The position numbers were made by a program, and so were the translations under genes. The notes beneath the pieces are model-generated. The model was not told where the DNA came from. It worked only from the letters and a program-made list of their open reading frames with translations, and did no database searches. From Ectocarpus siliculosus (lineage: Eukaryota; Sar; Phaeophyceae; Ectocarpales; Ectocarpaceae): a DNA stretch of 64,000 nucleotides. The stretch spans positions 316,245 to 380,244 of the forward strand of contig FN649751.1 in assembly GCA_000310025.1 (NCBI GenBank), read 5' to 3'. Shown here one piece after another: positions 1,165 through 60,160 of the stretch (position 1 is its first letter; each line of letters opens with the position of its first letter).

Positions 1165-4100
1165 GAGGGCTGGGAGATGACCCCACCGCGGCTGGGGGGC
1201 GCGACTTGACCGCTGAAATCGAAGCATGCACGGGCGAGGTGAGCAAGTAGCCCATTCCCCCTGACGAAGCGGGGTTTCTTCCATTCTTGATGGACCCGAC
1301 CGAACGTACTCGTGTGTATAGCCAGCTAAAAGGGTGCTCGAGTATGATCACAACTGACAGCATCCGTCGCAGGCGTGGCCTTACCCTCAAGAAAAAGTAA
1401 AAGGTTCTGCCACCTGTGGCTAAATATGTGCGGACCACGCTCACTCCGGTGCTCTCTATGCTCTTTTCCTTACGGGCGTCGTGGACTTACCGGCGATTGA
1501 TTGATTGTTGTTGTTGTTTGTTGTTTCGTCGCAGATCGCCGTGACCCGTCAGATGCTGGAGCCAATCATCAGTCGGCCACGGCTAAGCGACAAGCTTCTC
1601 AACATGCCTCCCTTTCGTTTTCTGCACGACATCGTCTCCGAGGTCACGAGACAGGTGACGAGATGGGTACGGGGGTGGGGGGTGGGGAGAGGTTGATCGG
1701 CAGCATGTGTTTGTGGAACAAACAACAGCAACAGCAGCCGCAGCAACAAGGAAGCTGGATTGAAAAATGTTGCCCCTTCCTCGGTAGATTTTGACGCCTT
1801 CGTACCGTTTCGCCCTACACAGCTACACACGTACGTACGTACGTACGTACGTACGACGTGATTTTCGTGATTGACTGATGTTGGGGTCCTTGGCATTCGA
1901 AGCGAGCACAGCACTGCCCCGCAAAAGAAGACACACACTATGCACACGCTGAATAGATCAACCCGCAGGATGAGGGCCCTCTTTCTTCGAAGGTGTTTCG
2001 CTCACGTCGTTCACCGAACTATCTAGGTTGGTTTGCTTATAGAGGAAAGCGTTTGGTTTGGTGCATGGCGGATGGTGGATGGCGGATGGTGCATGTTGCA
2101 TGTTGCATAATGCGGTGGGACGGCACAGACAAGGCGAATGCCCGCATTTGATTGAAAATGCTGTCCACGGTAGTCAAGTGCATTGGCAGGATAGACGGTA
2201 CGGTGCCCTTTCTGTTGTCTATCGATGCACTTGGCCGTTCCGGCTACATTTACGTATCTTTGCAGTAACTCCCTTTCCTCCCTACCCACGGTACGCCCCA
2301 CGGTACGTGCCACTCCATAATAACCCGGGAATAAACGGTATTTTCGGAAAATTTAGGAAATTGACCATAAGAACAGGGTGTCGGTGAAGAATCGTACGCT
2401 GTTTCGGCTAGGGTATGGAGAAAAATTCTGTCCTACCCATCGGTTTGTCTCTCCCCTCGTCGATCGAAATAGCTCGTCGCATGTTTGTCGACCTACAATC
2501 AACCAATCTGGTTGTCCTCTGAATGTTACTTTTATCTTCGCTGTCTGCTTCCTGTTTGTTGCCATTTTTTTGTGGTCTCGCAGTGTGTCATTTTCTCACG
2601 CGGTCTCTTCCTTCTGTCACCATTCTGTTTGTTCGCTGCATGTGTTGCTCGTCTGTAAGACGGGTTTTGGTCAAGGGCTGTACACCGGAGATGAGATGGA
2701 CTCCAGTCTCGTCAAAGCAAAGCCTGCCAAGGTGCGCGAACGCTCTGCTGACGGTGTTGGTGATGTTGTTGTCGTGGTTGGTGGCGTGTGCCTTGGTTGC
2801 TACTGTTTTCGTTGTCGTAGCCTGAGACGTTCCCGCTGATACTCTTGTTGATCTTATCGTTGCCGTCGATCCACTCCTCGTACTACATACATACGTACGA
2901 TGCCTTCCTACATGAGGATTTTATCGTGCGGTCACGTACGTACGCATATGTAGGACAGTTGCTGTTCATTGTTCAGTTTGTTTTGGAGTGAAACCATGCC
3001 CGAGCTTGAGGGGACGCCAACCCGTGGCCGCCGCGCCCCTCCCCCTAGATGGCGTATCTGGACAAGCTGATAATGTTGGTGGGGAACTCCCTCAACACCT
3101 TGGTGGACGCGAGACCGGCCAAGATCGTGGCGGGGCTTGAGGCCGGCAACACGAACAGGATGCTGCAGCTGCTGGCACTAGCGGCGGTGGAAAAACCCGA
3201 CTCTTCGAGGTACATATGTGTTTTTTTTGTGTCGAGAAAATGAGAAGACGGTTGGAGTAGCGGTGCAACGAATATACAATCGAACCGTCAGAATGGACAA
3301 AGAAGGAATAGCAAATAAGAAATGGATCGGAGGCCCTCTGTGCGACTTGTTGTAGCCGATGACAAAGAATCGAATGAAGTAGTTTTTTGTCATTCGCGAT
3401 GCAATGGTCTGCAGAAGATTTTCGGGGACTGGTGGGGCTGACCGTACAAAACTATGGTTGACTCAGTTGTACATGTTACATGTGGTACCGGTATGCGTTT
3501 GGAGAATCCGTTGGATAGTTCTTTTTCATCGAAGCCAGCTCGCTCACCTCCGAAACATGCCATGCTCGAAACCTCTTTGGAAGGCGGTCAACTCCAGCGG
3601 CGTTCTCTCACACGCAAGATGTTCGGTTTCATGGCTTGGCTGGAAACATGAGTGAATGATCTCTACAGCGTGGTGTGTGTGAAATGCACGCATCCGCGCA
3701 GACGTGCCCGCCTCCAACCAAACACCGTTCGCTCGGTGCCGAAAAACGTTGGCATCGATCTGTCTTCGACAGATGCCCCGTCCCCCCCCCCTCATCAGGC
3801 AGCCCACATGGTCTAGTGGTATGATTCGACATTCGGGTTGTCGAGGTCCGGAGTTCGAATCTCCGTGTGGGCCGATTTTTTCACCCCCCCTCGGTGTTTG
3901 CCGTCGGGGTTGGGTTTTCGTCGCTCGGCAACGACGTTGTAAAACAAGCTAATAAATAACTTCGTGAGCTCGGCAACCAGGTTGCCGCTTTTTTTTTTGC
4001 CTCTGTTTTTTTTTTGGCGGTAGTCATGATGGTGGTCGAGTAGATCATGTTGTGCGGGGTTGAGAACCCTCACTCCGCGCACGGGGGATGATCGCACCAT

Positions 4101-5778
4101 GTTGCGTTTAATTGGTCAAGCACCCTCGAGGCAGTCACACAGTGCTTATAACTGTCTCTGGAAGTGAAAGCACCAGAAAATAAATTAAGTCATACGTAGC
4201 TGTCATCCGGACGCAAGGAAGGAAGCACAAGATGCCGAACACCCTTAGCAGGATGCAGCTCACCCTTCATGCGACTCGCCAAATACCTCACGGCGCTTCG
4301 CGCTTGGTGATGTGAGAGCCTGGTCCAGTGAGAACCCGGCGTGCTCCGTCCCGGCTTTGTAGGGATGCGAGGTCAATGGTCAAACGACTACGGCATACAC
4401 GACTATGAGTACCCCCCCCCCCCCCCCCCCCCCGGGTGTTCAAACCCCCCGTGGGTTCCTACTCTGTGAGGGGAATCCTGGCTTTTAGGTATGTGTCTGG
4501 GTCTTATAAACCACTGGGTAGCTCTCATGACAACCTTTAAGATTACGTGGCTGCCTCAGGCTCCTCCACGCAAACACACAAACCCGACTCGAGGAGGCAC
4601 ACAACAGCCAGCGGTACCGGTCTTGTGCAAGCTCGACGACTCTAGCGCTACAGCAGCTTCCCTATTCCTGCGGACGCCCAGCCTAAGCAGTAACACCTCC
4701 GGAGATTCTGTAGTAGTAGATCATTCACTCGCTAACCAGTGCAGCGATGTTGACGGTTCTAACGATTCTAAGGGCCGTGGAGCTTGTCCTGGACACGACT
4801 CCCGTGAAGCGAAGGAGTTCCAGCAGTAGCGGAGGGGTTTCTGCGGCAACTGCGGCTGCTACTGCTGCTGCTGCCGCTACGGGCAGGTAAAATCTGCTTG
4901 ACGTTTGGCAGATAAAGTACGATATAGTTGGGTGGGCGAATAAGGGTGTGAGATACCGGGCTTAACCCCCCCCTGGCAGCTAGAGAGCTCAAAAACCATC
5001 GAGGGAGAGAGAGGGAGGGACGATACCGATTTCAGCACGAGAGCATTTAGCATGACAGCTTTCGCTTTCGAAGCCTTTCTTCTCATTGCTCGGATCCCCC
5101 TTCGAGAATGGTAGAAGCGCTGCCAATACGGGGTTGGTTGGAGTTCTTGTTTCCGCTGATTGTTACCAAGTGTTTTTCGCTAGCCTGACCTCCTTGGGGC
5201 CGCGGCTGTGTGGTTCAGCCTGAATCCCACCCACGCCTCTTCCCACAGAAGCAAACGTCCCCCTCCGGACATTTGGTTGTCCCCCCCCCCCCCCCCCCCC
5301 ATCCCCTTGTGGTATGCTGACGCAAATGCTTCTGTGATGACTGCCTCGTGCAGAGAACACGAGCGACCACTACAACAACAACAGCAACAGCCCCACCGTT
5401 CATCATCGGCCGCGTCCGATGCGAACACGGCGGCAGCGGCAGCGGCAGCAGCAGCGGCAGCGGCAGCGGCAGCCCCTGCGGCGGAGAGAGATGGTTCTCG
5501 AGGGTCTTCAGCAGGCGAGGCCAAGGGCGGGGATGGTGAGTTTGTATCCCCGGGGGTGATGATCCGTGTGTGTGGCCGTCATTTTGGACATATTCATTTC
5601 TAACGAGGCTCAATGCCTTACTATGTCTCAACCGAGAAGCACAGGTTGTTAATTTTTACGCTGTCGTCTACGGATGAATTCACTATAATACCTAGTACTT
5701 ATGCCATACAATACTTGTTGTTATTAGAAATCCTGTGCGTTTTCTGATGAGCAGGCCGGGGCTTTTTTTGTTGACAGC

Positions 5779-18566: not shown

Positions 18567-20673
18567 ATGGCAGGGAGAGCAGGCAATCGGCCGCAACCCA
18601 GGCAGAAGAAAACTTCGCCCCTGGAGAAAACTCTTGCCATTTTGATTCAGGTGAAGATAGGCAAAATCATCTGTACTGGACGCTACTCTGTACACTACTC
18701 AGAGAGTGCGTGCTGCACTTCTGAACATAGATGCACACATGCATTAACACACTTATCCTATGTAGCTGTTGTAGTGAGTGCGATGGCCGGGACCACTACT
18801 ATTGGCGTTGAAACTCTGTGATTGGTGTTGCAACTCGGTGTGGAATGAAATACAGAGTGTACACACAGGCATTCACCGACCACTCACTGCTGTTGCCATA
18901 TTCCGCTGTCGGCTGACAGAGCATGCGAGGGAACAAGATAGTGGTGGAAATGAAGAACGACGCCGAGATCTCTGGTATCCTGGAAGAGACAGATCGAAAC
19001 ATGAAGTGAGTGCGTGAGCCTCGAACCAGGGACTCGATCTCGATCACAGATAGACACCTTTCGTAAGGCTGAGCAACCATTAATGGCACCATCCGTTGTC
19101 GACAGCTTTTAGGGCAGCAACGGTATGGTTGGCTGCGTACGGGCTGACGTGCTCGCGCGCTGGACCTGCGCCGAGGTAGGATCGACGCATTCCTTGATTA
19201 GACCAAGAGCGATTGATGATTCATCATGGGTTTGTCCGAATGCCAGTATACTGCTGTTCTTGCGGTACACATTCATCCACGGTACAACAAGTCACGAGAG
19301 CGAGCAGACCACGCTGAGCTCCAACTGGCATTGTTGCACCACTATTTGTTGCAGCCCCTTTCACTGATAGCGCCTCGCAGCTTCTTCTACTCCCGGCAAG
19401 GTTTGGTGCCTTTCAGTAGAAGAGCCCCGATGACCGGGGCACACAGAAAAACGTCCGCAGAACGCTAGAAGAACGATGTTGAGACTCCCTCATGGGCGGC
19501 CGAAAGAAGTTGTTAACCTCACGCTACCCTTCTTCGCGCCTTCTCTAATCCCGATTGACCTCGCAAACTCTCGCGTGCTGGACGTTCATGGACCACACTT
19601 GGCATCACAGCTTGTCTATGGTGGACGTCCGCCAGACGAACCCAGATGTGAGCGAAACTGGGCAGCCGAGACCATCGTGCAGCAGCAATCACGCTTGAAG
19701 TCTGACGTTGAAGAGCCACAGATTGTCACCCACGGATGCTGCCCCAGCGAGAGCTCCGCGCTGTATCCCGTTGTGCCAGATGGTACCGAAAGTCGCCTGT
19801 AAGACAACAGATACAGCGGAAAGCCGTACTGATCGTTTTGCCCGCTCCCCGTTGTCCTATCATGGCAGGCAGAATTCGATTCTGAAAACCTTTGAGGCAC
19901 CGAGAATCGTCAAGAAGAAACAGGCACAATCGGAAAGCCCCGCTGATCAGCGCCCCCCCCCCCTTGGCCGAATACCTCACATCGCTTCGCGGTTGGTACT
20001 GTGATAGCCTGGTCCGGTGAAAACCAGGCGTGCTCCGTCCCGGCTTTGAAGGGGTGCGAGACCAATGGTCTAGCGATTACTGCGTGCACGGCTATGAGTA
20101 CCCCCCCCCCCCCCCTGCCATTGCCCGCACCGTGGCAGAGCCTGATTACAAAAACCTTAAATTCTTCCCTGCCCCTGCTTGCCAGGGCTCGGTGAGGAAG
20201 ATGGACGTGGTCTTAGTCCAAGGAAAGATGATCAGATACGTCCACATCCCCGACAAAGTGGACGCCATCAGCAATTTGCAAAAACACGTGAGTTTTTTTT
20301 TCAGCCCTGACGTTTACGCCGCCGTTGGCACGCTATCGTAGCGTTTTATAGTAGCCGCCGAGGTTCAACGGGCGCCTTTTGTGCCCCACGTTTACATTTT
20401 CCTTGCGTCATCTTCCGTTCACAGCGTTTTTCATGCGCATTTGCAAACAACGTGGCCGTAGCTAGAAGTCTGAGGGTGTTCCCTGGATGCGTTCGTACGA
20501 CAAAAAATAGTTTGTATGTACTCTTTCCTGTGCATCAACATTTTCGAGGTAAATGCCTTTTTTCCGCACCTGTCCCCGATTTCGCAACATGCCGCTTGCA
20601 GATGCGCACGATGGACCAGCAAGGCTACCATCGCAACATGCTCAAACCGAAGCTGTCACAGGCACCTCCATAG
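18567..20673 (+). CDS. Sm/LSm-fold protein, closest to LSm10 of the U7 snRNP
   Basis: Exons: 18567-18650, 18920-19005, 19118-19175, 20186-20287, 20602-20673; phases agree and give about 133 residues. The Sm1 part reads LEKTLAILIQ, then GNKIVVEMKNDAEISGIL, then ETDRNMN. The Sm2 part reads VVLVQGKMIRYVHIPDKV. The N-terminal TLAILIQ before a Gly-rich turn and the RYVHIPD signature resemble animal LSm10 (123 residues in human), which replaces SmD1 in the U7 particle for histone mRNA 3'-end processing. LSm2 or SmD1 paralogues are the alternatives: they share the general fold but lack RYVHIPD. The 58-base third exon is the least certain part. The last intron-bearing stretch before 20186 carries SINE-like copy 3. 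The tail MRTMDQQGYHRN has no known function. Confidence 0.65.
19964..20115 (-). repeat. SINE-like dispersed repeat, copy 3 (head only)
   Basis: Minus strand. It starts with a G run (C at 20101-20115), followed by the same A-box-bearing head as at 4433 and 59424, and is cut off at another C run (19953-19963). It lies inside the third intron of the LSm10-like gene. Confidence 0.6.
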
Positions 20674-28737: not shown

Positions 28738-29602
28738 CGATGAATGAAGCCCAGAAGATTCGCTGTTGTCGCACCCGCAGTTGTCCCTGCAGCGTGGGGA
28801 GCCGAGTCTACGTTCGTGCTGTCCGCCAGATGTGGTTTGGTTTAGCTTGCCAAACACCCTTGGTTATTTTTTCCCGTGGGATGCTCACCTGTGTGCACTG
28901 TGATAGACGAGAGAGAGAGGTGCTGTGCTCTTGGCGAGACACGAAAAGAAGAGCGGTCGGTCGTTGCTGACAGGAAGATACTCGATTTTTTTTCACCCGG
29001 CGCCTAGCGATGGAGCTCGCGTACCACTGAAGACAACAATCGAAAGGTACATTTTTGCCGTGCGCGTGCCTCGTCACTGCGCTTGTTGTTCCAGGGTGCG
29101 TTGCTGTTTCAGGTGAACNNNNNNNNNNNNNNNNNNNNNNNNNNNNNNNNNNNNNNNNNNNNNNNNNNNNNNNNNNNNNNNNNNNNNNNNNNNNNNNNNN
29201 NNNNNNNNNNNNNNNNNNAATACCTGAAACAGCAACGCACCCTGGAACAACAAGCGCGGTGACGAGGCACGCACACGGTTACAAAGATTGTTGTCTTGAG
29301 TAGTACGCGAGCTCCATCGCTAGGCGCGGGGTGAAAAAAATCGAGTATCTTCCTGTCAGCAACGACCGACCGCTCTTCCTTTCGTGTCTCGCCAGGAGCA
29401 CAAAATCCACTCTCTCTCGTCTAATATATTCTCTTCGGAGCGCACACAGGTGAGCACTCCACGGGAAAAAATAACCAAGGGTGTTTGGCAAGCTAAACCA
29501 AACCACATCTGGCGGATAACACACACGTAGACTCGGCTCCCCCCGCTTCAGGGACAACTGCGGGTGTGACAATAGTGAATCTTCTGAGCTTCGTTCATCT
29601 GT
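28738..29602. mobile_element. Large inverted repeat (foldback or MITE-like) around a gap
   Basis: The left arm 28738-29118 and right arm 29219-29602 are reverse complements of each other at roughly 85-90% by eye, with small indels. The 100 N gap (29119-29218) is the loop. Because the arms have diverged, this is not simply a mirrored assembly artefact. No transposase frame is seen and no clear target duplication; similarity fades over ~10 bases outside each arm. The right arm ends about 120 bases before the start codon of the next gene. Confidence 0.75.
29119..29218. other. Assembly gap (100 N) at the hairpin loop
   Basis: The gap sits exactly at the centre of the inverted repeat, as expected where a hairpin blocks sequencing or assembly. 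Confidence 0.95.
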
Positions 29603-42899: not shown

Positions 42900-43421
42900 T
42901 GTTGAGTAGCTTTGTGCGTGGGTGCCTCGGCGCGGGGTCCCGTAGTGGGAAACAAAAGGTGCCAGCAGCTGGGTACTGCCAACGGTCAAAATGTAGAAAC
43001 TATCCGCGGGCGTGAAAGCCCTTCTACGTGGTGGAGCGTGGAAGCTCGTGTATAATATAGTTGTGGCGTGGAAGCCGGGTGGCGTGGTGGCCCTGATGTA
43101 AAGGTATATTTAGGGACGTGGGAGTCCTGAAGGCGTGGAAGCCGGGTTGGCGTGATAGCCGGAGTATGGGCGTGGAAGCCGGGGTTGGCGTGAGAGCCGG
43201 AAAAAGGACTTGATTATACACAGAAAAAGGAAGTGAGGAACCACAAGCCACGCACACAAATTCCGTTGTAGACACCCATACCCTCAAACCTGCAATATGT
43301 GATAAAGTTGGTACCACCAAATCTAATCCATAGCAACCATTGAACCCCCAAACTCCCCGCTCCATCTGCTCGGGAAATTCTTGCTCGCAATAATCTGTTG
43401 ATGCTGTGAGTACATCCAACA
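42900..43421 (-). repeat. Left LTR (3' LTR of the minus-strand element)
   Basis: 522 bp, TG...CA ends. Beside it at 43422-43430 is the polypurine tract, TAGGGGGGC in element sense. It contains nine small hairpins at 43008-43198, identical to those of the right LTR. Confidence 0.93.
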
Positions 43422-43948
43422 GCCCCCCTACTCGCTGCATTGGCAAGATTACACCCGGACTCATTTAACTACCTTACACATGCATACCCTCTTATACCAA
43501 ATACCTGAACGCAAGGCTTAGTGATTAACATTCCATCCATCTCATGCTTCGTCTTCGCCAAAACACCATGACCATTAAACCCGAAACAAAACTCGTTAGA
43601 ACTCCAACCGGTTTGAAACTCTTCTCCTAACCATTAAACCAGAAACACTGCAGAGATTATCCATCGGTCACCCTGGAATTCAACATCGTAGAAAATCCTC
43701 AGAAATAGCAATTCAATAGAATCGCACAAACGCAAAAAAACAAAACAAAAATAAAGACTCCAGGATCTGCTCATTCATTTAGAATTTCAATCGGATAGAA
43801 AGTATTCCCAACCAACCATTAAAACAGAAATACCAAATATAATGTCAATCGGCCATTCTTGAATTCAAACTCGTAGAAAATCAACTCCTCATATACTCAA
43901 ATCGAAAGAATCACACAAACAAAAACACAACACAAAAAACTCCGGGAC

Positions 43949-46900
43949 TGCTCAATTTAAGTTCATCACGTAGTCCCTGTGGAACACAAAATCCCTCTCA
44001 GGTAGCGCCTTCGTGAGGAAGTCAGCATGCTGGTACTGCGACGCTACATGAATGATCTCTACCTCCTTCTCATCTACCAGTTGTCTGAGGAAGTGATGCC
44101 GCACGTCGATGTGCTTCGAGTTGGAATTCGAGATCGGGTGTTTTGCGATCTGGAGAGCACCCTCGTTATCCTCGTACAGTGGAATGCACGGCCGCAACTC
44201 CTTCGGCAACATAAAGCGCCAAACCTGCCTCAAAAAAAGAATCTCCTTCCCCATGTCCGCCATCGCCACGTACTCTGCCTGCGTGGTGGACAAAGTCACA
44301 CACTTCTGAGTCTTGGAAAACCATGCTATCGCTCCCCCCGCACACATTACTACTCCCCCTGAAACCGACCTACGATCCGCCGCACGCGAGGCGTAATCCG
44401 CGTCGACGAACGTGATCAAAGAAAACCCTGAAATTGTCCCCTTCTGAAAAGAAATCCCGAAAGAACTAGTCCTAACTGCATATCCTAAGATGCCAAGTGC
44501 AGCCTTCCAGTGGATCAACTTGGGTGCACTACAGTACCTCGCTACTGCCCTCACCGCATTCGCGATATCCGGCCTAGTCAACAAAGCTATCCATAGCAAC
44601 GAACCAATCAGCGCGCGAAATGGGTGCTCTACGCTCGGCTCATTCACATCAAAGTCCCAAAGTCTCCAAGTCGTGGGCAAAGGAATGCTTCCGCCCCACT
44701 CCACACCATATCTCTCTCCCAACTCCTTGGTGTATGTCTCCTGCGAAATCGTCAATCTACCTGCCTCTCTGTCCCTCTCGTAATAGCAACCAGAGTACCA
44801 CTGCAACTCCCCCAGAGACTTCACCGGTACGTAATCGCCCAGGTCCTTCCCAAATTGATCACACCTCTCCTTCGTCCCCACTGCAAAAATATCATCTACG
44901 TGTACTACTAGAATCAACACTACTTCCCCCCCTTCGACTAAGCGAAAAACACATGAATCGGCCATGCACTGCTCGAAACCCAAAGCCAAAAGACACTTCT
45001 TCAGCAACGCGTACCACTCCCTAGATGCCTGCCTCAAACCGTAAAGGCTCTTGTTCAACTGCACAATCTTCCCCGACAACGCACCACATCCTTCCGGCAA
45101 TCGCATGAAAATGTCTTCCTTGAGAGGGGCCCTCACAAACGCCTGATCGATATCGAAATGACACAACTCCAAGTCAAGCTCACACGCCAAAGCTGCCAAC
45201 ATACGAACACTAGACGAAGCTACTGTGGGAGCATACAAATCACCAAAGTCAATGTACTCCTTCTGCATATCTCCTCTTGCAACAAGTCTGGTTTTGGCCT
45301 TCGTAGGAAAGCCGAACGCATCTACCTTCCAATCAAACACAAACTTCGACTTGATACAATTACCGATTGGTTGCTAGGGTCCAACAACCTTGAATGCATC
45401 TGCTTCTAGCAACCCAAACACCTCTCTCTTCGTTGCGTCCATGAACTGGGTGCTGTGCACGCTCTCCTTCGCCTCCTTGAATGTCTGGGGAACCCTGAGG
45501 TCCTTGGCGTGGCAGCGCGGCATGTCGGGACGCAGAAGGGGTGGCTCCATCTCAGAGATAGCCGAATCGAGGTCGTCGCGCGTCGCAAGACGCGCCATGA
45601 GCCCGAGCGGAACGCCCCGCTCAGAGGGACCGATCGACCATCCATACCCCACGCGTCCCTTCTCGCCCGTGTCCCCCTTAGGCAGGATGCCCTTGCTTCC
45701 TCCCGCGTCCCCACTCCGAGCTCGCTGCTCCCCTCCGCCCCCCCTGCTCATCATCCCCCTCCAATCCTGGCCGGAGCATCGTCTTCCCGTTCATGACTCG
45801 CCGAGCATCCAGCATGGAGAGGAGGACATCTTCGTTCGCCTGAGCCAGCAACCCCATGGTGATCTCGGAAGGAGGGAGAGGAGTACTGACGGCCTCGTTC
45901 GGCAGAGATGGGAACTGCCGGTCCTCCGAAAGAGTAGAGAGCTGCTGCTGTGACATGGCGCGCGCATCTCCCCTCGTGCGTCCTCGGACCCGAAGGTCTC
46001 CCTTCTCGCCCAGCTGTCTCGAAGCATGGGGCGTCAGGGGCGTGGCGTACCCCGGTGCGGTCGGCGGCGGTCTGGTCAGCCTGGTTTGGCGTGGTTGCGG
46101 CGCTCTTCTTGGCGGGGACTGTTCAGCCTCGATGGGTGAGGACGACCATTCCGGGAGCGGCGGCGATATCGACGACGACGGCGACGACCCAGCAGCGGCA
46201 GCAGCAGCAGAGGACGGNNNNNNNNNNNNNNNNNNNNNNNNNNNNNNNNNNNNNNNNNNNNNNNNNNNNNNNNNNNNNNNNNNNNNNNNNNNNNNNNNNN
46301 NNNNNNNNNNNNNNNNNNNNNNNNNNNNNNNNNNNNNNNNNNNNNNNNNNNNNNNNNNNNNNNNNNNNNNNNNNNNNNNNNNNNNNNNNNNNNNNNNNNN
46401 NNNNNNNNNNNNNNNNNNNNNNNNNNNNNNNNNNNNNNNNNNNNNNNNNNNNNNNNNNNNNNNNNNNNNNNNNNNNNNNNNNNNNNNNNNNNNNNNNNNN
46501 NNNNNNNNNNNNNNNNNNNNNNNNNNNNNNNNNNNNNNNNNNNNNNNNNNNNNNNNNNNNNNNNNNNNNNNNNNNNNNNNNNNNNNNNNNNNNNNNNNNN
46601 NNNNNNNNNNNNNNNNNNNNNNNNNNNNNNNNNNNNNNNNNNNNNNNNNNNNNNNNNNNNNNNNNNNNNNNNNNNNNNNNNNNNNNNNNNNNNNNNNNNN
46701 NNNNNNNNNNNNNNNNNNNNNNNNNNNNNNNNNNNNNNNNNNNNNNNNNNNNNNNNNNNNNNNNNNNNNNNNNNNNNNNNNNNNNNNNNNNNNNNNNNNN
46801 NNNNNNNNNNNNNNNNNNNNNNNNNNNNNNNNNNNNNNNNNNNNNNNNNNNNNNNNNNNNNNNNNNNNNNNNNNNNNNNNNNNNNNNNNNNNNNNNNNNN

Positions 46901-47880
46901 NNNNNNNNNNNNNNNNNNNNNNNNNNNNNNNNNNNNNNNNNNNNNNNNNNNNNNNNNNNNNNNNNNNNNNNNNNNNNNNNNNNNNNNNNNNNNNNNNNNN
47001 NNNNNNNNNNNNNNNNNNNNNNNNNNNNNNNNNNNNNNNNNNNNNNNNNNNNNNNNNNNNNNNNNNNNNNNNNNNNNNNNNNNNNNNNNNNNNNNNNNNN
47101 NNNNNNNNNNNNNNNNNNNNNNNNNNNNNNNNTTCTTGCCGGTGTAGAGCTCCTGCGGCGAGGCACCCCCTGCGTTGGAAGGAGATGCAGACTGGTTCAG
47201 CTTCTGCGCGGCGTCTTTTGCGGACTCCGCCCAGAGCTCGTCGCCCCGAACGCTCAGCCCGCGGATACGAGAAAATCCAGCGGGGCCAAGTATCTCTTGG
47301 GCAGCGCGGCGAGACGCCTTGCCGACCTTGAGGCACCTCTGGATGGCGCTCTCGACGACGCCGTTGTACTGCTGCACGCCGGGAGGGGAGTACTCGATCG
47401 CGATCCCCATGCTGGCACAGAACTCCTTGAAGTCGCCGCTGGTCCAGAGGGCGTCACAGTCGCCCCGGACGCACTTGATCGCGGTGCCAGCCTTGTGGGC
47501 GGCGTCCACGACCATGCGCTTGAAGACCGCCAACGCCTCCGACTTCCGCCGCATGGCATAGCAGACGATCCAGCCCGTGGCGGCGTCCACACCGAAGAGC
47601 ATGTAGTGGTTGCCGCCGATGGTCGCCGTGTACCCGCCGCACATGTCGATGTGGAACATGTCGTTCGGCGCCCTCTTGCCGCGGTATCCGCCCCCCTGCT
47701 TCGGCACCGGTGCCCTCGTCCCCCGCGCCGGCAAGCACCACCGGCAGCTGTCCATTGTGCCCGTGAGGGTGATTAAGAAAGTGGCTGCTGTGTCTGCGCG
47801 AATAAGACGGCTGGAGGAGATGGACGAAGACCTCCGCGGGGACCAGGGACTAGTTCCTCTCCCCACGGGGAAGACAACGG
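43949..47880 (-). mobile_element. Copia pol region: integrase, RT, RNase H
   Basis: Minus strand, in Copia order. The integrase core is at about 47750-47133 (HIDMCGGYTA, then DAATGW, then GVQQYNGVVES with the third catalytic residue), preceded by a possible remnant of the zinc finger (CRWC). After the gap come a linker and RT plus RNase H at 45340-43952 (RLVARGDMQKEY, FDIDQAFVRAPL, HVDDIFAVG, FVDADYAS, STTQAEYVA). It is largely open, with few breaks outside the gap. The protease and most of the upstream part are not present on this strand. Confidence 0.88.
46218..47132. other. Assembly gap (915 N) inside pol
   Basis: The gap interrupts the retrotransposon pol region between the integrase core and the linker. 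Long frames reported across it on either strand are artefacts of the N run. Confidence 0.97.
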
Positions 47881-47899
47881 GGGGGAAGGACGAGGTTCG

Positions 47900-49150
47900 T
47901 TGAACCTCCCCGATGTGGACCAGCAGGGAGGAACGAAAGCAGCCGCGGATGGAGGGGAACAAGATCCAACTATCGCCCTTGTCGACCTCCTCCGCCGGGT
48001 TGCCAACTTCGCCTCCCAGACTCCGGGACATGACGTCCGCTCAGGCACGTCTAGTTCCCAGCCCATAGAGTTGAAGCTGAGAGAGAGAGTCGAAGTACCT
48101 GAGTGGAATGATGCTTTCTTGAAGGATCGAAGTGTGACTGTCGCGTTCCGAATTTTTACGAGTTGTTTCTCAGGGTGGATGGATGCAGAGGGTCTTGAAG
48201 AGATCATGAGAGGAGAAGAGATTCCTGTGGGTTCGTTGCACGTCGATAAGACTTGGTTGCGGCAGAGGTATGGCGATGAAAGTGTTCGAAAGGCCACGAG
48301 AGTCTGGATGTGCTTGATCACGAAAATCAACGTTCAACCTATACTAGACCAGATACTAGCTTCAGAGAGTCCACAAGCAGGGTGGAGAGTGTTTCAGTCC
48401 TACTACACTACAAACAGGACGCATGAGAGAGAAATCCTGGACGGCACTTGGAACTGCCTTAGACAGAAGCATGGAGAGACTCTGGTCGACTACTGGGGAA
48501 GGGCGAATACTGTGTGGATGCAATTACAGTCTTGTGGGGACAATCGAGAGGAGACGTTAATGTCGAGACACTTTGCACGTGGCTTGCTCCCAATGTACGA
48601 CGATGTCAAAGACCGTATTCTGTTCCACCCCATGCTTTCGAGAGGTACTCTGGAAGAGACGCTGAGGCTGGTCGAGCACGAGCAGAGGATCAAACGGAGG
48701 TGTGGGGAGGGGATCGAGGACACGAGGCATGCGCCCGTCGCTGCCGGCGCAGGCCGGGACGGCGGCATGAGGAGAGCAGCTGCTGCGGGAGCGGATGGCG
48801 GACCATCTCATGAGCAGAGAGGTGCCTTCTTCTGCCAGGTTCACGGAGCGAACTCCTCCCACAACACCCCAGACTGCCATAAACTTCGCAAGGACTTCTT
48901 GTTCCACTACAACGACTTCATGGCGTTCATTCGCGAGAGGGACGGTATGCGGGGACCAGGTTTTCCTCAGGCCGGGGGGCAAGAATCGGGGCGCTTGTCG
49001 GGCGGATCATATCGAGAGCAGCTGCACCAACTCGACCAAGGGGCAAGCTGGGGTCGGGGCCGCCCGTTCTGTCCCCGTTCTGCAGGGCCCGACGCTGATG
49101 AGCAGCGAGTCTTCAACGAGGCCTTTAGCACCGCTACTCAGCCGGCGACT

Positions 49151-49200
<50 letters not shown>

Positions 49201-49480
49201 CATCGGCGCTAATCCAACGACCTCTGCCTCCTCGACGGCGACCCCCTCTCCACCTCCGGGCGACACTCCTCCAGCAAGTGGCGCCCCTCTTCGTCTCTTC
49301 CTCACACGTAGTGTGAATTCTCTAGGCGAGTCTGATTCTGTGTCTGGAAATGAGATTAGAGTTGTTAGTGATGGGGAGGTGTCTGGTGTTCCCGTTGCTG
49401 GTATGTCTGTGCCTGATGTTCCTGTGGTTCCTGTGGTGAAGCCTGCTGTGACCTTTCAAGCCCCCGGTATGGCACACTAG
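47900..49480 (+). mobile_element. Copia gag gene on the opposite strand
   Basis: An open frame of 526 codons with the Copia gag pattern: WLRQRYGDES, then QKHGETLVDYWGRANTVWMQ, then RGLLPMYDDVKDRI, then LVEHEQRIKRR. A CxxH...HxxxxxC-like cluster (CQVHGANSSHNTPDCHK) and a polyglutamine run (CAG repeat, 49153-49198) follow. It is read head to head with pol. It looks whole as a frame. No protease or integrase follows it on this strand. Confidence 0.8.
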
Positions 49481-49481
49481 G

Positions 49482-50042
49482 ATGTCAACACCCAAAGGTG
49501 GTGAGCAGTTGCAGGGAGACTCGGGGACGAGTGCGGGGATGTTTGATGCGAGGGAAGGTGTTGCGTCTAAGTGTGATGTGGCTGTGTTGGGTCGTGCCGA
49601 ACAAATGGATGTTGACGGTTTCCACCACCGCGCTGGCTACTTTCCCCAACCCGTTTTGAGTTTGACTGCCAAGCAACAAGGGAACACCCTCCCCAGGGAG
49701 TTGGGACCCGGGGCCATCGCCGCTTCGCAGCCCGCTGCCACCGCTGCGCCTTGGCCTGTAGCCGCCGCCGCCGCCGCCGCCGCCGCACCACCGCCGCTGC
49801 CGCCAAGTCCCGGGGCACCCGTGCCGCCTGCATCCTCGCCGGATGTCGCCGCGCTGCCGGACCCGCGGATGACTGCGACGAGGACTACCGCCGCTCCGCT
49901 GCCCGCCGCTGTTACTACCGCCGCGCCGTTGCCGACACGCAAATCGGTGCCGACCTCCGAGGCCGATGGACCACATCCATCTCCGACGGCGCGTATTGAA
50001 CGGCAAGCCGATGATTTGGCCTGGGATGATACGGACCGGTGA
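49482..50042 (+). mobile_element. Second open frame after gag, Ala/Pro-rich
   Basis: 186 codons starting one base after the gag stop. It is low in complexity, with Ala and Pro runs, and no domain is recognised. It may be the tail of the gag-unit coding region or chance GC-rich sequence. Confidence 0.35.
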
Positions 50043-52484
50043 GCTGGGGGAAGGCGAGCTGGGGGGCGACGAGATGGAGGGCGGTGGAGAACAGGATGTT
50101 TGGGAGGGGTGCATGTGGGAGATCAAGAACAACCTGCTGGGGGTCGCCCCTCCGAGCGGGGCACTCCGTTTGGGCTCGTGACGCGCCTTGCATCGCGCGA
50201 CGACATCGAGTCTGATCTAACAATGTGGGTTTCGTGTTTAGTTTAGTTTTTTTTGCCTTTCTTTCTGGCAGCGCGTTTTACTTTTGCACTGGTTTTTTCT
50301 TCTTTGTTGCTGTTTTTATGTACATCCAGAATCATGGGGGGGGGGATGTCATGTGTGACCATGATTCTAGAGGGCATGAACAGCAATCGATTTGTTTTTG
50401 TTTCCCCATATGAACAGCTACCTTTGCAGGGGGGCTGTCTCCATGTTTGTTAGTTGGCATTTTGATATTCGCGGAGTGTTCTTGCATGAACTCTGGAAAT
50501 GTAAGGGGTATGTTTCGGGATGTGACAGCGGGGGGCTGTCTATATGTTTGTTTAGTTTTCTATCCGTTTCGTGGACAGCAACGGCGGCACCGATTTGCGT
50601 GTGCGCACTGTTTAGTTTGGTGCTCAACGACTATACTGGAGCAAGGAGTTGGCAGGAGTGATTGTTAGGGCCTATGTGCTTTCCGAATACTCGTTTCTGT
50701 CGTCCAAGAAATTGTAACATTGTTTCGTTTGAGTTTTTGTGCCTACTCTTTGAAGCTGTTTTCCTCAGAATTGTCCGTCCCCATTCCGATGTTTTTCTGA
50801 TGCAGCGCTGCCGCTTGTTTGGTATTTGTCTGAGAATGGTTCTGTGCTGTTGACGGTTTGAGATAATTTCCAGAGAAGGATGCATCGCCCAGCGGGGATG
50901 GAAACCACGGGCAACGGCGGTTTAGTGACAGATGTATGCATGCGGGTTTGTGGATCCGGAATTGTTTTTTTGGTTGGTTTTTGGTTTTGGCTTGTTTCGG
51001 CGTTCTTTCGGATTTGATTTTGCGATTGAAATTGCACCTGCAAGAATATTTGACGGCATGAAGGCTGCGTTGAAACTGTTCAGAAAGGATCATGATGATG
51101 GAATAGGGTTATTGGTTTGAATCCTTGCGGCCATGTCGCGAAGGCCGCTACTATGGTTGTGCTTGTTGTTTTTGTTTTTTCCTTCTGCGTGTGGCATTTT
51201 TTTTAGGTAGAAGGCTCTATCTACATTGTTGTTGTCCCCTGTGTGTTTGGCGCGCCTCTCCATGTACCATCGGCCAGGGGTAACCCCTCTATTTATATAA
51301 AATGCTATGTCTTCGATGCTGTTGTCAATTGTCATTGGGGGGGGAATTGGTGTGTCATGACAATTAACTACAGCAATGTTACGAAGAATGGAATGTTTCG
51401 TCTGTTTTCGATGTTCGATTTGCAGAGTTCGGGATTTGACAATGCAGGTTGCGATTTTGGGGTTGTTTCCAGTACCCAAATGTCACAAGATGCGTTTATC
51501 AAGTAGAGGGTTGATCCCTTCACGTCTGGTGTTCGGAGAAGGGGGGCCGCAGCCAGACATGCATGGGTAGGGTATGCAGGAAGAAAATAAAAGGTATTGT
51601 AGGAAACTGAACGAACGGAGGTTTGTTTGTGTTTGAGGAAAAATAATGAAAGAAGAAGGGGGGCCTATCTTTGTAGCACTCCATGACTCCAATGTACCTC
51701 GCGCTGTCAACCACGCAGGCAGGGCACGTAGCGATGTCACATGTTTCAAGGAGATTTTGTTTCTGAGGCAGGTTTGGTGTTGCTCCCATGTTGCTGAGGT
51801 ATTCTGGTTTGTAATTTCATCGTGTTTGTTGGACATTGAATTCAAGATTGGCCGATAGAAAATACTCGAAAGAAAGGGTTTTTTTGTATTAATGGTCTTC
51901 GTGTTGTTATGAGGATGAGGTATTATTGTGGAGTCGAGCATTTTTGTGCAATCATGATTCTTGTGCTACGTGTGGATTTGAAGTCTCCTCGGAAAGTGAT
52001 TTGTCCCGGACGGTGTTGGATGTGTTTGCATTTGTGTTCGTTTTCATTTGTTCCTGATATAACCCATTGCGGTTGTTTCCACGATTTGAGTTTTGGATGA
52101 TTTGATATTGGGAATTTGAAATTCATGAGCGACCGATGGAAATTGTTGGTGGTGTTCCTGGTTTAATGGTTTGGAACCGATGGGAATTGCAATCAAGTGT
52201 TTCTGGTTTAATGGTTTTTAGTGAATGTTTTGATTTTTGGAGATTCTGGATACAATGGAGACCGATGGAGATTCTGGTAGTAGGTGTTTCTGGTTCGTTT
52301 GCGACAAATGGAAGTTCGAACTAGTCTCTCTGGTTTAATGGTTTATGGTTGTTGCAAGAGGATGGGAGGAGAAACGACTGTTGCACAATGACATTGATTT
52401 CTGGAGTTTTTGGGATGGGTTTCGTGTGATGCATAATATAAGCAAGTTCGGGTATAATCTTGACAATGCAGCGAGCAGGGGGGC
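50043..52484 (+). mobile_element. Noncoding 3' region of the plus-strand unit
   Basis: About 2.4 kb, T/G-rich, with no pol remnant. At 52140-52345 several copies of a phrase like GTTTCTGGTTTAATGGTT recur. The same phrase in reverse complement occurs at 43570-43830, between pol and the left LTR. Both units therefore share their 3' noncoding region. A polypurine tract (AGGGGGGC) ends at 52484. Confidence 0.7.
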
Positions 52485-52974
52485 TGTTGGATGTACTCAC
52501 AGCATTGACAGATTATTGCAACCGAGGAATGTTCCTAGAAGATGGAGCGGGGGATTTTGGGGGTTCCGCAGTTGTAATAAATTGGGGGAATGGTGGTACC
52601 ATCTTTGCCACATATTATTGTTTTCTGGGTATGCGTGTCAGCAACGGTGTTGGCCACGTGCCCTTGATTTATTCATCTTCCTTTTTCCCGGCTATCACGC
52701 CCTGGGCTATCACGCCCGTGCCCATACTACCTATCCACCATCTATCACGCTGCCAGGCTTTCACGCCTCTAGGCTATCACGCCATCACAACAGCTATCAC
52801 AGCACCAGCGTCAACACATCAGAGCTATCACGCTCCGGAACATCATAGATGCGGCGGGTTACCACACACACCCGTGGGCAGTTTACTGTATTTTATCGTT
52901 GCCGGCAAACTCGCCGCGCGGTTCTTTTATTTTTGCCGTCTACAACTGCGCCGGGCGCACCAAGCCACCCAACA
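52485..52974 (+). repeat. Third LTR, inverted and divergent
   Basis: 490 bp starting TGTTGGATGTACTCACAGCA and ending CCAACA on the plus strand, preceded by the family's polypurine tract. It is clearly related to the outer LTRs in its first ~200 bases but diverged afterwards. It has its own set of hairpins (52690-52835). It is the 3' LTR of the gag-bearing unit; no matching 5' LTR is present. Confidence 0.85.
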
Positions 52975-52982
52975 CGCTAGCG
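52975..52982. other. 8-base palindromic LTR-LTR junction
   Basis: CGCTAGCG separates the end of the inverted third LTR (AACA) from the end of the right LTR (TGTT), making a perfect 16-base palindrome. The two LTRs meet by the same (U5) ends. The outer element therefore lacks a recognisable primer-binding site at its normal place. Confidence 0.85.
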
Positions 52983-53504
52983 TGTTGAGTAGCTTTGTGC
53001 GTGGGTGCCTCGGCGCGGGGTCCCGTAGTGGGAAACAAAAGGTGCCAGCAGCTGGGTACTGCCAACGGTCAAAATGTAGAAACTATCCGCGGGCGTGAAA
53101 GCCCTTCTACGTGGTGGAGCGTGGAAGCTCGTGTATAATATAGTTGTGGCGTGGAAGCCGGGTGGCGTGGTGGCCCTGATGTAAAGGTATATTTAGGGAC
53201 GTGGGAGTCCTGAAGGCGTGGAAGCCGGGTTGGCGTGATAGCCGGAGTATGGGCGTGGAAGCCGGGGTTGGCGTGAGAGCCGGAAAAAGGACTTGATTAT
53301 ACACAGAAAAAGGAAGTGAGGAACCACAAGCCACGCACACAAATTCCGTTGTAGACACCCATACCCTCAAACCTGCAATATGTGATAAAGTTGGTACCAC
53401 CAAATCTAATCCATAGCAACCATTGAACCCCCAAACTCCCCGCTTCATCTGCTCGGGAAATTCTTGCTCGCAATAATCTGTTGATGCTGTGAGTACATCC
53501 AACA
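52983..53504 (-). repeat. Right LTR (5' LTR of the minus-strand element)
   Basis: 522 bp, near-identical to 42900-43421. In element sense it has TATA-like TATATTATA at about 53141-53133 and nine short hairpins at 53281-53091. Confidence 0.93.
53091..53281 (-). promoter_or_regulatory. Array of nine mini-hairpins in the LTR
   Basis: On the plus strand each unit is a 3-4 base stem around GTGRNA-type hexamers: GGGC/GCCC (53091), GAGC/GCTC (53117), GGC/GCC (53148, 53164), GGAC/GTCC (53197), GGC/GCC (53215, 53232, 53252, 53270). In element sense the loop is mostly TNYCAC. Stem bases change in pairs while the loop stays. The array brackets the TATA-like site. Confidence 0.75.
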
Positions 53505-55010
53505 ACCGCAACGGATTTCTATAGATGTTTCTGAGATTGTTCCGCTAGGGTGTGGCAAGCACCACGAGGAGCGCGCGCGGAGCGCGCGAACACGTTGCAG
53601 CACACGACACGGCGGCTTGCCCGACATGATCTCTGTCTGAGATTGATTGACTTCCCCGACCCGCGTTTTGATTGTCTTGCCAGTGTGCGGGCGTTTGTTG
53701 CCGTACGCATGCATATGTAGCAGCGAAGTGCCTCCTGCAAGATGCCGACCGTGACAAATCATCCATCGTGGTTTGGTGGCGGCGGATGCGCCGAACGAAT
53801 ACGAATTGCACCTGCCTGCTCAGTGATCTCCACAATGGGACCGAAGACTACAAGTAGCGGCTGTAACTTACAGCTGCTGCGTGATATGTAGCGGTCAGCC
53901 ATATACTGTATATGGTTAACCATAACCATAAGGGATTCTTCTTCCTCTCCCTCCTCTCTTCCTAAAAGACTGCGTCCGGTGGCTGTTGGGTACCGCGGAG
54001 AAGGCGGAGGGATTATTTGGTGAAAATGCGGCAGTACCTCACCAACCGACACTTGTTTGCTTGCCTCACTCTCTTGCCGATCTCCCTTTGTACCTCGAAA
54101 AAGGAGTGAGACGTACATACACGCGCGAGTAGGTTTTGACCTTGCTCATCCCGGCCCGACACCGACCTACCTGCAACCAAGTCGTCGTCCTATTGGGGGG
54201 CAACTTCCGAAGCAGCCATGTACAAAACCAAGAGGTGTGCACAAATGACATGAAAGCACCACCACCATGGTTGGGGTCATGGTTAAACCTTATTTTCAAG
54301 TTGTTGTCCGAGAAAGGGCACACTGCTGTACTGCTGTGCCTGTGTCATGGGCGGTAGGGGGCGAGACGCACAAGTGCGGTGGTAGAAGAAGAGCGCTGCT
54401 GCAATGTGAACCGTGGTCAGGGTGCTGTCTGTCCATCCAAGCTCTGTACACATTCATCATGAAAGACGATTCTTTCTCAAGTATATGTCCAGTGCCGGCC
54501 CGCTCGTAAGAAAACACATACTTTGAGGGCTCAACGCCTTTGCACAACGATTGAGCGCAGGCTGATGCTAACCTATCATATTCCATGAGGTAGTGTGGTG
54601 CTCGTGGCTGAGTTAATCTTCTTTCGCAAATTTGAATTATTTCCTAAAAACACGAGAATAGTCTTCGTTTCGTTGAGTTGAAAAAACAATTGGAAAAAGG
54701 AGTCGACTGCTTGTGAGCATGTTCCTACGAGCGGGTCGGCCCTATTGTACAAGCAACAGCCGTAGCACAAAAACAATATAAGGGTAGCCTTTGTTCATAG
54801 CTATGTTTTCACGCGCTTTCACGATACCAAGACCCTGCAATATGACGTTGGCGAGTGCCTGGTTCAAGGTGAGAAATGCTTCGCTGAAATATTCCACCAA
54901 GCATACAAGCAAACGGAGAAGCACGTCACGCCCTCAATGCTCGGTGCGCGCCTGGTCAAGAAATCACGCCGGACGCACTCACATGATGTTCGCACAGATT
55001 AAACAAGAAC
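53505..55010. other. Intergenic, right of the retrotransposon
   Basis: It starts with the right copy of the target duplication ACCGC (53505-53509). No gene is assigned. The stretch 54791-54869 ends in a good donor (AAGGTGAGA) and could be a 5' exon of the next gene, but its frame could not be linked. Confidence 0.45.
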
Positions 55011-59423: not shown

Positions 59424-60160
59424 GGGGGGAGGGGGGGAGGTCGTGCATGCCGTAGTCGTTAGACCGTTGACCTCGCATCCCTACAAAGCCGGGACGGAGC
59501 ACGCCGGGTTCTCACCGGACCAGGCTCTCACATCACCAAACGCGAAGCTCCGTGAGGTATTCGGCGAGTCGCATGAAGGGTGAGCTGCATCCTGCTAAGG
59601 GTGTTCGGCATCTTGTGCTTACTTACTTGCGTACGGATGACAGCTACGTATGACTTAATTTATTTTCTGGTGCTTTCACTTCCAGAGACAGTTATAAGCA
59701 CTGTGTAACTGCCTCGAGAGTGCTTGACCATTTTAACACAACATGGTGCGACTATTCCCTTTGCGCGGAGTGAGGGTTCTCGACCCCGCACAACATAATC
59801 TACTCGACTACCATTCATGGTTACCGCCCCAAAAAAAAACCAGAGGTGAAAAAACCCGGCAACCTGGTTGCCGAGCTCACGAAGTGATCGGCTTGTATTA
59901 CGTCATCGCTGCCAAGCGACGAAAACCAACCCCGATGGCAAACACCGGGGGGGGCGGCACGTTTTCAAACATCTTTGCCAAGCGACGAAAACCCAACCCC
60001 GATGGCAAACACCGGGGGGGGCGGCACGTTTTACAACATCGCTGCCAAGCGACGAAAACCCAACCCCGATAGCAAACACCGGGGGGGGCGGCATATTTTA
60101 CAACGTCGTTGCCAAGCGACGAAAACCGAACCCCGACGGCAAACATCGGGGGGGAGGGGG
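59424..60160 (+). repeat. SINE-like dispersed repeat, copy 2, with minisatellite tail
   Basis: It starts with a G-rich run (59424-59438), then the A box (TAGTCGTTAGACC) and weak B box (GGTTCTCACCGG), then body sequence matching 3882-4433 in inverse orientation, including hairpin CGGCAACC-T-GGTTGCCG near 59857. From about 59905 to 60160 it ends in four units of ~65 bases, each with GCCAAGCGACGAAAACC and a run of G. Copy 1 has only one such unit. Confidence 0.65.

Follow-up and report, generated by a model that had tools for sequence, protein, structure and literature searches.

Nine loop-conserved dyad or hairpin units with paired stem changes in the long terminal repeats of a rearranged Copia element of Ectocarpus siliculosus

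Short repeated sites near TATA-like stretches are the usual content of the U3 region of a long terminal repeat (LTR), and the iron-responsive element is a hexaloop RNA hairpin with a fixed loop and a variable stem. Like the iron-responsive element, the array described here combines a six-base loop that stays constant with a paired stem that varies; the two differ in the sequence of the loop, in the length of the stem (3-4 bp here), and in repetition. In the available sections of the literature on Tnt1, a Copia element of tobacco, the U3 region is described as carrying BI/BII, in which a short motif is repeated, with an extra BII repeat in some elements. Tnt1 and the present element are alike in that a Copia LTR contains a short motif repeated several times; they differ in that BII is described in those sections as protein-binding boxes, with paired stem change unmentioned there, whereas the present unit is a loop-conserved dyad known from sequence alone. 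By analogy with these partial descriptions, the BII boxes may be regarded as the nearest known case of a repeated dyad DNA site. In Ectocarpus, gag-only Copia families (Copia-N1_Ec32 and Copia-11_Ec32) have been described (PMC12477816), and a count of the terms hairpin, stem-loop, palindrom, and secondary structure in the main text of that paper gave 0 for each. Further literature sources, each available in part, were PMC2923131, PMC3601003, and PMC3316501. No covarying hairpin array in an LTR was found among the titles and abstract starts of the top-ranked literature matches, and 0 papers joined 'tandem hairpins' with LTR and retrotransposon.

The window (the whole stretch of DNA analyzed, 64 kb) contains a Copia element and three LTRs, with the following features.

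42900-43421, minus strand: 3' LTR of the Copia element, with nine units as in its partner.
43952-45340, minus strand: Copia reverse transcriptase (RT) ORF (Pfam RVT_2, E 3.7e-36), including a part that we take to be RNase H.
47135-48031, minus strand: integrase-core ORF (Pfam rve, E 1.7e-9).
47900-49480, plus strand: gag-like ORF of an inverted relative, with a C-H-H-C knuckle recognized by eye.
52485-52974, plus strand: third LTR, diverged and inverted, 490 bp.
52983-53504, minus strand: 5' LTR of the Copia element (the main LTR), TGTTG...CAACA, 522 bp.

The main LTR and its partner were aligned over 522/522 bp with 1 difference, at LTR position 60; both have TG...CA ends, and the target-site duplication ACCGC lies outside both. 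The integrase (48031-47135) precedes the RT (45340-43952) in element sense on the minus strand, which is the order of Copia (Pseudoviridae) elements, and an N gap (46218-47132) separates the two ORFs. The stretch from the integrase to the right-hand LTR holds a second element, inverted relative to the first. Its gag-like ORF gave no Pfam match and is followed by about 3 kb containing short DNA matches to the first element, including one in the pol linker (82% over 65 columns, E 9e-13) and another in the RNase H stretch (81% over 75 columns, E 3e-13). Protein matches in this part were weak (best E 2e-5, in the linker; the rest E 0.007 to 0.44), and no intact pol was found. The inverted relative thus resembles, by description only and as far as the accessible part of PMC12477816 goes, the Ectocarpus gag-only families, both in combining a gag-like ORF with no intact pol found and in its linker and RNase H matches. 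Eight bases, CGCTAGCG, part the third LTR from the inverted right-hand LTR, and the two inverted LTR ends join in the palindrome CAACACGCTAGCGTGTTG; a G-rich tract was seen by eye just before the third LTR.

An intact 5' part (primer-binding site, gag, and protease in element sense) was not found in the Copia element, the primer-binding site and protease being judged by eye only, and the inverted gag-like ORF and its LTR stand where that part would be. The Copia copy at 42900-53504 is a rearranged member of its family: a composite in which an inverted gag-only relative, together with its 3' LTR, replaces the Copia 5' part, with a boundary placed by eye near 47750. Despite this composite interior, only one base distinguishes the outer LTRs, and ACCGC flanks both. 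The composite may stem from a recombined cDNA, a later rearrangement, or an assembly error. The RT protein matched nothing in the viral contigs or phage records searched; in genome contigs, 14 stretches fitted a pattern and 0 were confirmed. The LTR start likewise had no match in the viral contigs searched.

The array occupies 53091-53281 (LTR positions 224-414) and consists of nine units with a loop of six, read in element sense on the minus strand.

53270-53281, minus strand: unit 1, GGC-TCTCAC-GCC (LTR 224-235).
53252-53263, minus strand: unit 2, GGC-TTCCAC-GCC.
53232-53243, minus strand: unit 3, GGC-TATCAC-GCC.
53215-53226, minus strand: unit 4, GGC-TTCCAC-GCC.
53197-53210, minus strand: unit 5, GGAC-TCCCAC-GTCC.
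53164-53175, minus strand: unit 6, GGC-CACCAC-GCC, with an off-consensus loop.
53148-53159, minus strand: unit 7, GGC-TTCCAC-GCC.
53117-53130, minus strand: unit 8, GAGC-TTCCAC-GCTC.
53091-53104, minus strand: unit 9, GGGC-TTTCAC-GCCC (LTR 401-414).

The preliminary description had reported nine units of 12-14 bases with a constant hexamer loop, mostly TNYCAC, on GGGC/GCCC, GAGC/GCTC, GGAC/GTCC, and GGC/GCC stems. All nine were recovered with these stems, GGC/GCC in six units and each of the others once. The closing pair is C-G in 9/9 units, and the loop is TNYCAC in 8/9 and CACCAC in 1/9. The main LTR therefore carries nine units with a near-constant loop. The main LTR pair is identical throughout the array and was counted once. 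Paired changes inside the main LTR rest on two units (GGAC and GAGC) and on the fourth pair in three units.

To find counterparts, the two LTR types were globally aligned with an alignment tuned for easy gap opening. Identity was 144/178 ungapped columns over LTR positions 1-200 (32 gap columns), 142/179 over 201-420 (69 gap columns), and 69/88 over 421-522 (21 gap columns). The counterparts in the third LTR, three of which (at 52704, 52755, and 52822) had already been pointed out with the stems listed here, are as follows.

52690-52701, plus strand: counterpart of unit 1, GGC-TATCAC-GCC.
52704-52717, plus strand: counterpart of unit 2, GGGC-TATCAC-GCCC.
52739-52752, plus strand: counterpart of unit 3, CATC-TATCAC-GCTG, in which 3/4 pairs form, with a mismatch at the second pair.
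52755-52768, plus strand: counterpart of unit 4, AGGC-TTTCAC-GCCT.
52772-52783, plus strand: counterpart of unit 5, GGC-TATCAC-GCC.
52791-52804, plus strand: counterpart of unit 6, decayed, with the loop TATCAC and no stem pair.
52822-52835, plus strand: counterpart of unit 8, GAGC-TATCAC-GCTC.
52856-52873, plus strand: possible counterpart of unit 9, remodelled, GGGT-N10-ACCC, recognized by eye where the alignment is gapped.

Unit 7 had no recognizable counterpart in the global alignment. The third LTR thus keeps the order of the array, with six units that pair (one of them mismatched), one that looks remodelled, one decayed, and one unrecognizable. The array order is common to both diverged LTR types, which indicates that the array predates their split. 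The GAGC/GCTC stem of unit 8, which is the same in both types, is probably a single event by descent.

We compared LTR positions 201-420 with 1000 dinucleotide shuffles. The main LTR contains 11 hairpins with a loop of six (shuffle mean 2.3, maximum 9), and 9 with a YNYCAC loop (mean 0.05, maximum 1). In regards to the third LTR, 5 YNYCAC-loop hairpins were found (mean 0.03, maximum 1), and its total of 6 loop-6 hairpins was not unusual, being reached by 58/1000 shuffles. Both strands of the window were also scanned for clusters of at least 4 hairpins with similar loops. Loop-6 clusters occurred in these three LTRs only (8, 8, and 5-6 members, those of the third LTR including one hairpin that is no unit). 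Other loop lengths gave clusters of 4-6 members, mostly of loop 4 and a few repeating a stem, and loops of 7 and 9 gave no cluster on either strand of the whole window.

Other repeats were seen in the window. A 520-bp repeat lies 10 bases past a tRNA gene (3802-3873; the region as a whole spans 3802-4403). The repeat has an inverted copy at 59440-59954 (90% identical) and a 149-bp piece at 19967-20115, and is possibly an element inserting beside tRNA genes. Tandem copies of a unit of about 66 bp lie at one end of this repeat (59889-60154), and an inverted repeat of about 380 bp (28739-29599, 87% identical) flanks a 100-N gap. Rfam detected one tRNA only over the whole window. In 52400-53600, no Rfam family reached its cut-off, and three weak matches (E 0.0066, 0.048, and 0.83), far below the gathering score, were rejected as chance.

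A two-unit array pattern was matched by 10 stretches in viral contigs and 33 in genome contigs, all prokaryotic or viral records; the patterns fixed the core stem as GGC/GCC, so these matches could not reveal paired core changes. From their spacing and sequence stretches, the matches, most of two to five units, were judged to be unrelated coding or tandem repeats. One contig of the bacterium Paeniroseomonas aquatica has four GGGC-TWTCAC-GCCC hairpins (spacings 90, 24, and 23) with two loops on one stem, which are probably unrelated to the Copia array.

To examine paired change, sites were chosen by loop alone (TNYCAC in LTR 201-419), which gave 8 sites per LTR type and 16 in total. Pairs formed at stem positions 1-4 in 15, 14, 14, and 8 sites, against means of 13.2, 12.3, 9.8, and 3.7 when the right arms were re-dealt over all 16 (column p 0.12, 0.07, 0.007, and 0.002); the total was reached in 0/20000 re-dealings. 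When the arms were re-dealt within each LTR, p was 0.0007 for the three core pairs and 0.00006 for four pairs, and the 14 sites with TWYCAC loops gave 0.006 and 0.0003, respectively. Wider loop definitions gave lower p values but include non-units, and they test the existence of hairpins, not covariation.

A second, hand-chosen set of 16 rows comprised the nine main-LTR units, with CACCAC, and seven third-LTR sites, with the decayed one; it leaves out the remodelled site (GGGT) and any loop match beyond the array. In these rows 51/64 cells pair (80%), against at most 42% for slid partners, and neither the observed pairing nor the covariation score was reached by any of 500 shuffles (0/500). 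Cells changed on both sides numbered 6 (4 core and 2 fourth pairs; reached by 1/500 shuffles). The number of pairs with a both-sided change (3, reached by 22/500) and the number of further pair types (4, reached by 354/500) were not extreme. Both-sided core changes are few, with four cells and about three events. Re-dealing within each LTR gave the following p values for core and four pairs, respectively, all under controls that leave the relatedness among units in place: 0.002 and 0.0002 for all rows; 0.014 and 0.007 for the main LTR alone; 0.14 and 0.015 for the third LTR alone; 0.004 and 0.0008 without the shared GAGC copy; and 0.006 and 0.0008 for the 11 distinct arm pairs only.

We simulated substitutions at levels of 20-30%, and the probability of at least three two-sided changes among the 27 counterpart pairs was 0.008 to 0.12. 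The three changes lie in the third pair of unit 3, in unit 5, and in unit 9; for unit 5, two single-base insertions could also explain the difference, and the change in unit 9 depends on a gapped alignment. Moreover, one-sided breaks occur in the third LTR at 52739-52752 (one pair) and 52791-52804 (the whole stem). The fourth pair of units 2, 3, and 4 is formed in the third LTR only, through a one-sided difference, and that of unit 5 in the main LTR only. The proposal that the stems change in pairs thus stands above controls on most measures, but it is tempered by the small number of independent events and by the one-sided breaks in the third LTR. Paired change appears to exceed chance, with few events and two LTR types behind it. 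It is likely, but not proven, that selection has kept the dyad or hairpin unit itself.

The opposite reading is that no selection acts on structure and that the units form a degenerate palindromic minisatellite, spread by duplication, with arms matched by template switching (quasi-palindrome repair) during reverse transcription or replication. We consider this unlikely. The tandem periods speak for it: units 1-4 have an 18-bp period (3.8 copies, 76% match), units 6-7 a weak 8-bp period (61% match), and the third LTR a 16-bp array (2.6 copies, 80% match). So does the state of units 3, 6, and 7 in the third LTR. According to the accessible part of PMC8794818, paired stems can arise and be restored through template switching, and evidence of template switching is described for Tnt1 in the available sections on that element. 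However, the role of template switching in short stems is described as "less clear" in the same part of PMC8794818, no tandem array of the main LTR includes unit 5, 8, or 9, and no head-to-tail period runs across the array, about 4/9 units lying in the 18-bp array and the others having other periods or none. The order of units kept across the diverged LTRs also stands against a minisatellite. Furthermore, the stems never exceed four pairs, whereas repair would set no such limit: a fifth pair is Watson-Crick in 0/16 units and G-T in one, which points to units that are compact dyads, each 12-14 bases long.

Within the unit, the loop varies least, which also argues against the minisatellite. Paired stem change around a fixed loop had been taken as the mark of selection on structure; the constancy of the loop holds, but template-switch repair could yield the same pattern. 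In the third LTR, 6/7 loops are TATCAC on differing stems, compared with 1/9 in the main LTR (Fisher p=0.009, the units within one LTR not being independent); with the remodelled site (TACCAC) counted, the proportion is 6/8. Whole-unit copying would also have evened out the stems, which makes a shared shift in the reader of the loop attractive.

We also consider it possible, although doubtful, that the array is a U3 promoter or enhancer in which repeated dyad sites, GGC-N6-GCC, bind a dimeric DNA-binding protein as double-stranded DNA, with no hairpin. A motif repeated within the LTR, as found here, is what such an enhancer would contain, and a dyad of 12-14 bp with a sharp end would suit the footprint of a dimer. 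TATA-like stretches at main LTR positions 204, 310, and 363, ahead of the array or within it, also fit this reading; all three words are absent from the third LTR, where TATTTTA is found at 405 instead, and this weighs against the enhancer. Independently drifting half-sites should also often mismatch, whereas the arms match beyond re-dealing. The repeated BII boxes in the U3 region of Tnt1, described in the available sections as binding DNA-binding factors, are in favor of it.

The pairs and the predicted folding bear on both DNA and RNA. The wobble pairs expected of a structured RNA were absent, with 0 G-U among the 51 paired cells of the hand-chosen rows in sense, which suits DNA. Read in antisense, six cells turn into wobbles and pairing rises to 89%, which may be explained by base composition; the two strands exceed their shuffles by similar margins (10.4 points in antisense, 9.4 in sense), and we therefore claim no strand from pair counts. 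As single-stranded DNA, the array folded no better than shuffles (z +1.0), again in line with a double-stranded site. As sense RNA, the array of either LTR type was predicted to be more stable than shuffles (z -2.6 and -2.9; second run -2.8), and four other LTR stretches were not (z -0.55 to +0.92); the antisense array gave z -0.8 and -2.2. When the whole main LTR was folded in sense, the closing-pair probabilities of the nine hairpins in the ensemble were 0.35-0.96. In the corresponding ensemble of the third LTR, 5/8 tested hairpins formed at 0.69-0.99 and 3 had a probability of 0.0, namely the mismatched, the decayed, and the remodelled one, the test having assumed a loop of six, which the last one lacks. 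When the third-LTR array stretch was folded alone, unit 1 also dropped to 0.01, leaving 4/8 closing pairs near 0. A paired unit as RNA has -2.4 to -6.0 kcal/mol, and the mismatched unit does not fold.

We lean toward a cis-acting element of the Copia family composed of hairpin units recognized through the loop, in preference to the dyad enhancer, which we rate as almost equally probable, and hold this reading tentatively. The step from a kept dyad to an RNA is one that we infer: sense folding and loop constancy favor the RNA, and the weak stems of 3-4 bp and the missing G-U pairs disfavor it. In the hairpin reading, about nine small hairpins, each with a TNYCAC loop on a C-G closing pair, would be read through the loop, and the letters of the stems, just 3-4 bp long, would be largely free provided that they pair. 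The sense transcript would present the units as single-stranded hairpins, and one RNA-binding protein might bind several of them at once. This protein would be the Gag of the element or a host factor, presumably of the YCAC-binding kind. The array is common to the pol-bearing element and its gag-only relative, so both would use the same factor. The fuller proposal, in which a multi-hairpin LTR RNA signal with a coevolving hexaloop and stems of 3-4 bp that covary freely tags pol-bearing and gag-only partners for the same Gag or host protein, seems to us quite improbable.

LTR regulatory regions usually change too fast to reveal what is selected, and constant loops combined with paired stem change would directly show selection on shape. 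The array is therefore a potential test bench for compensatory evolution versus template-switch repair in reverse-transcribing elements. If the shared tag were true, it would help to explain how gag-only elements go on exploiting their partner.
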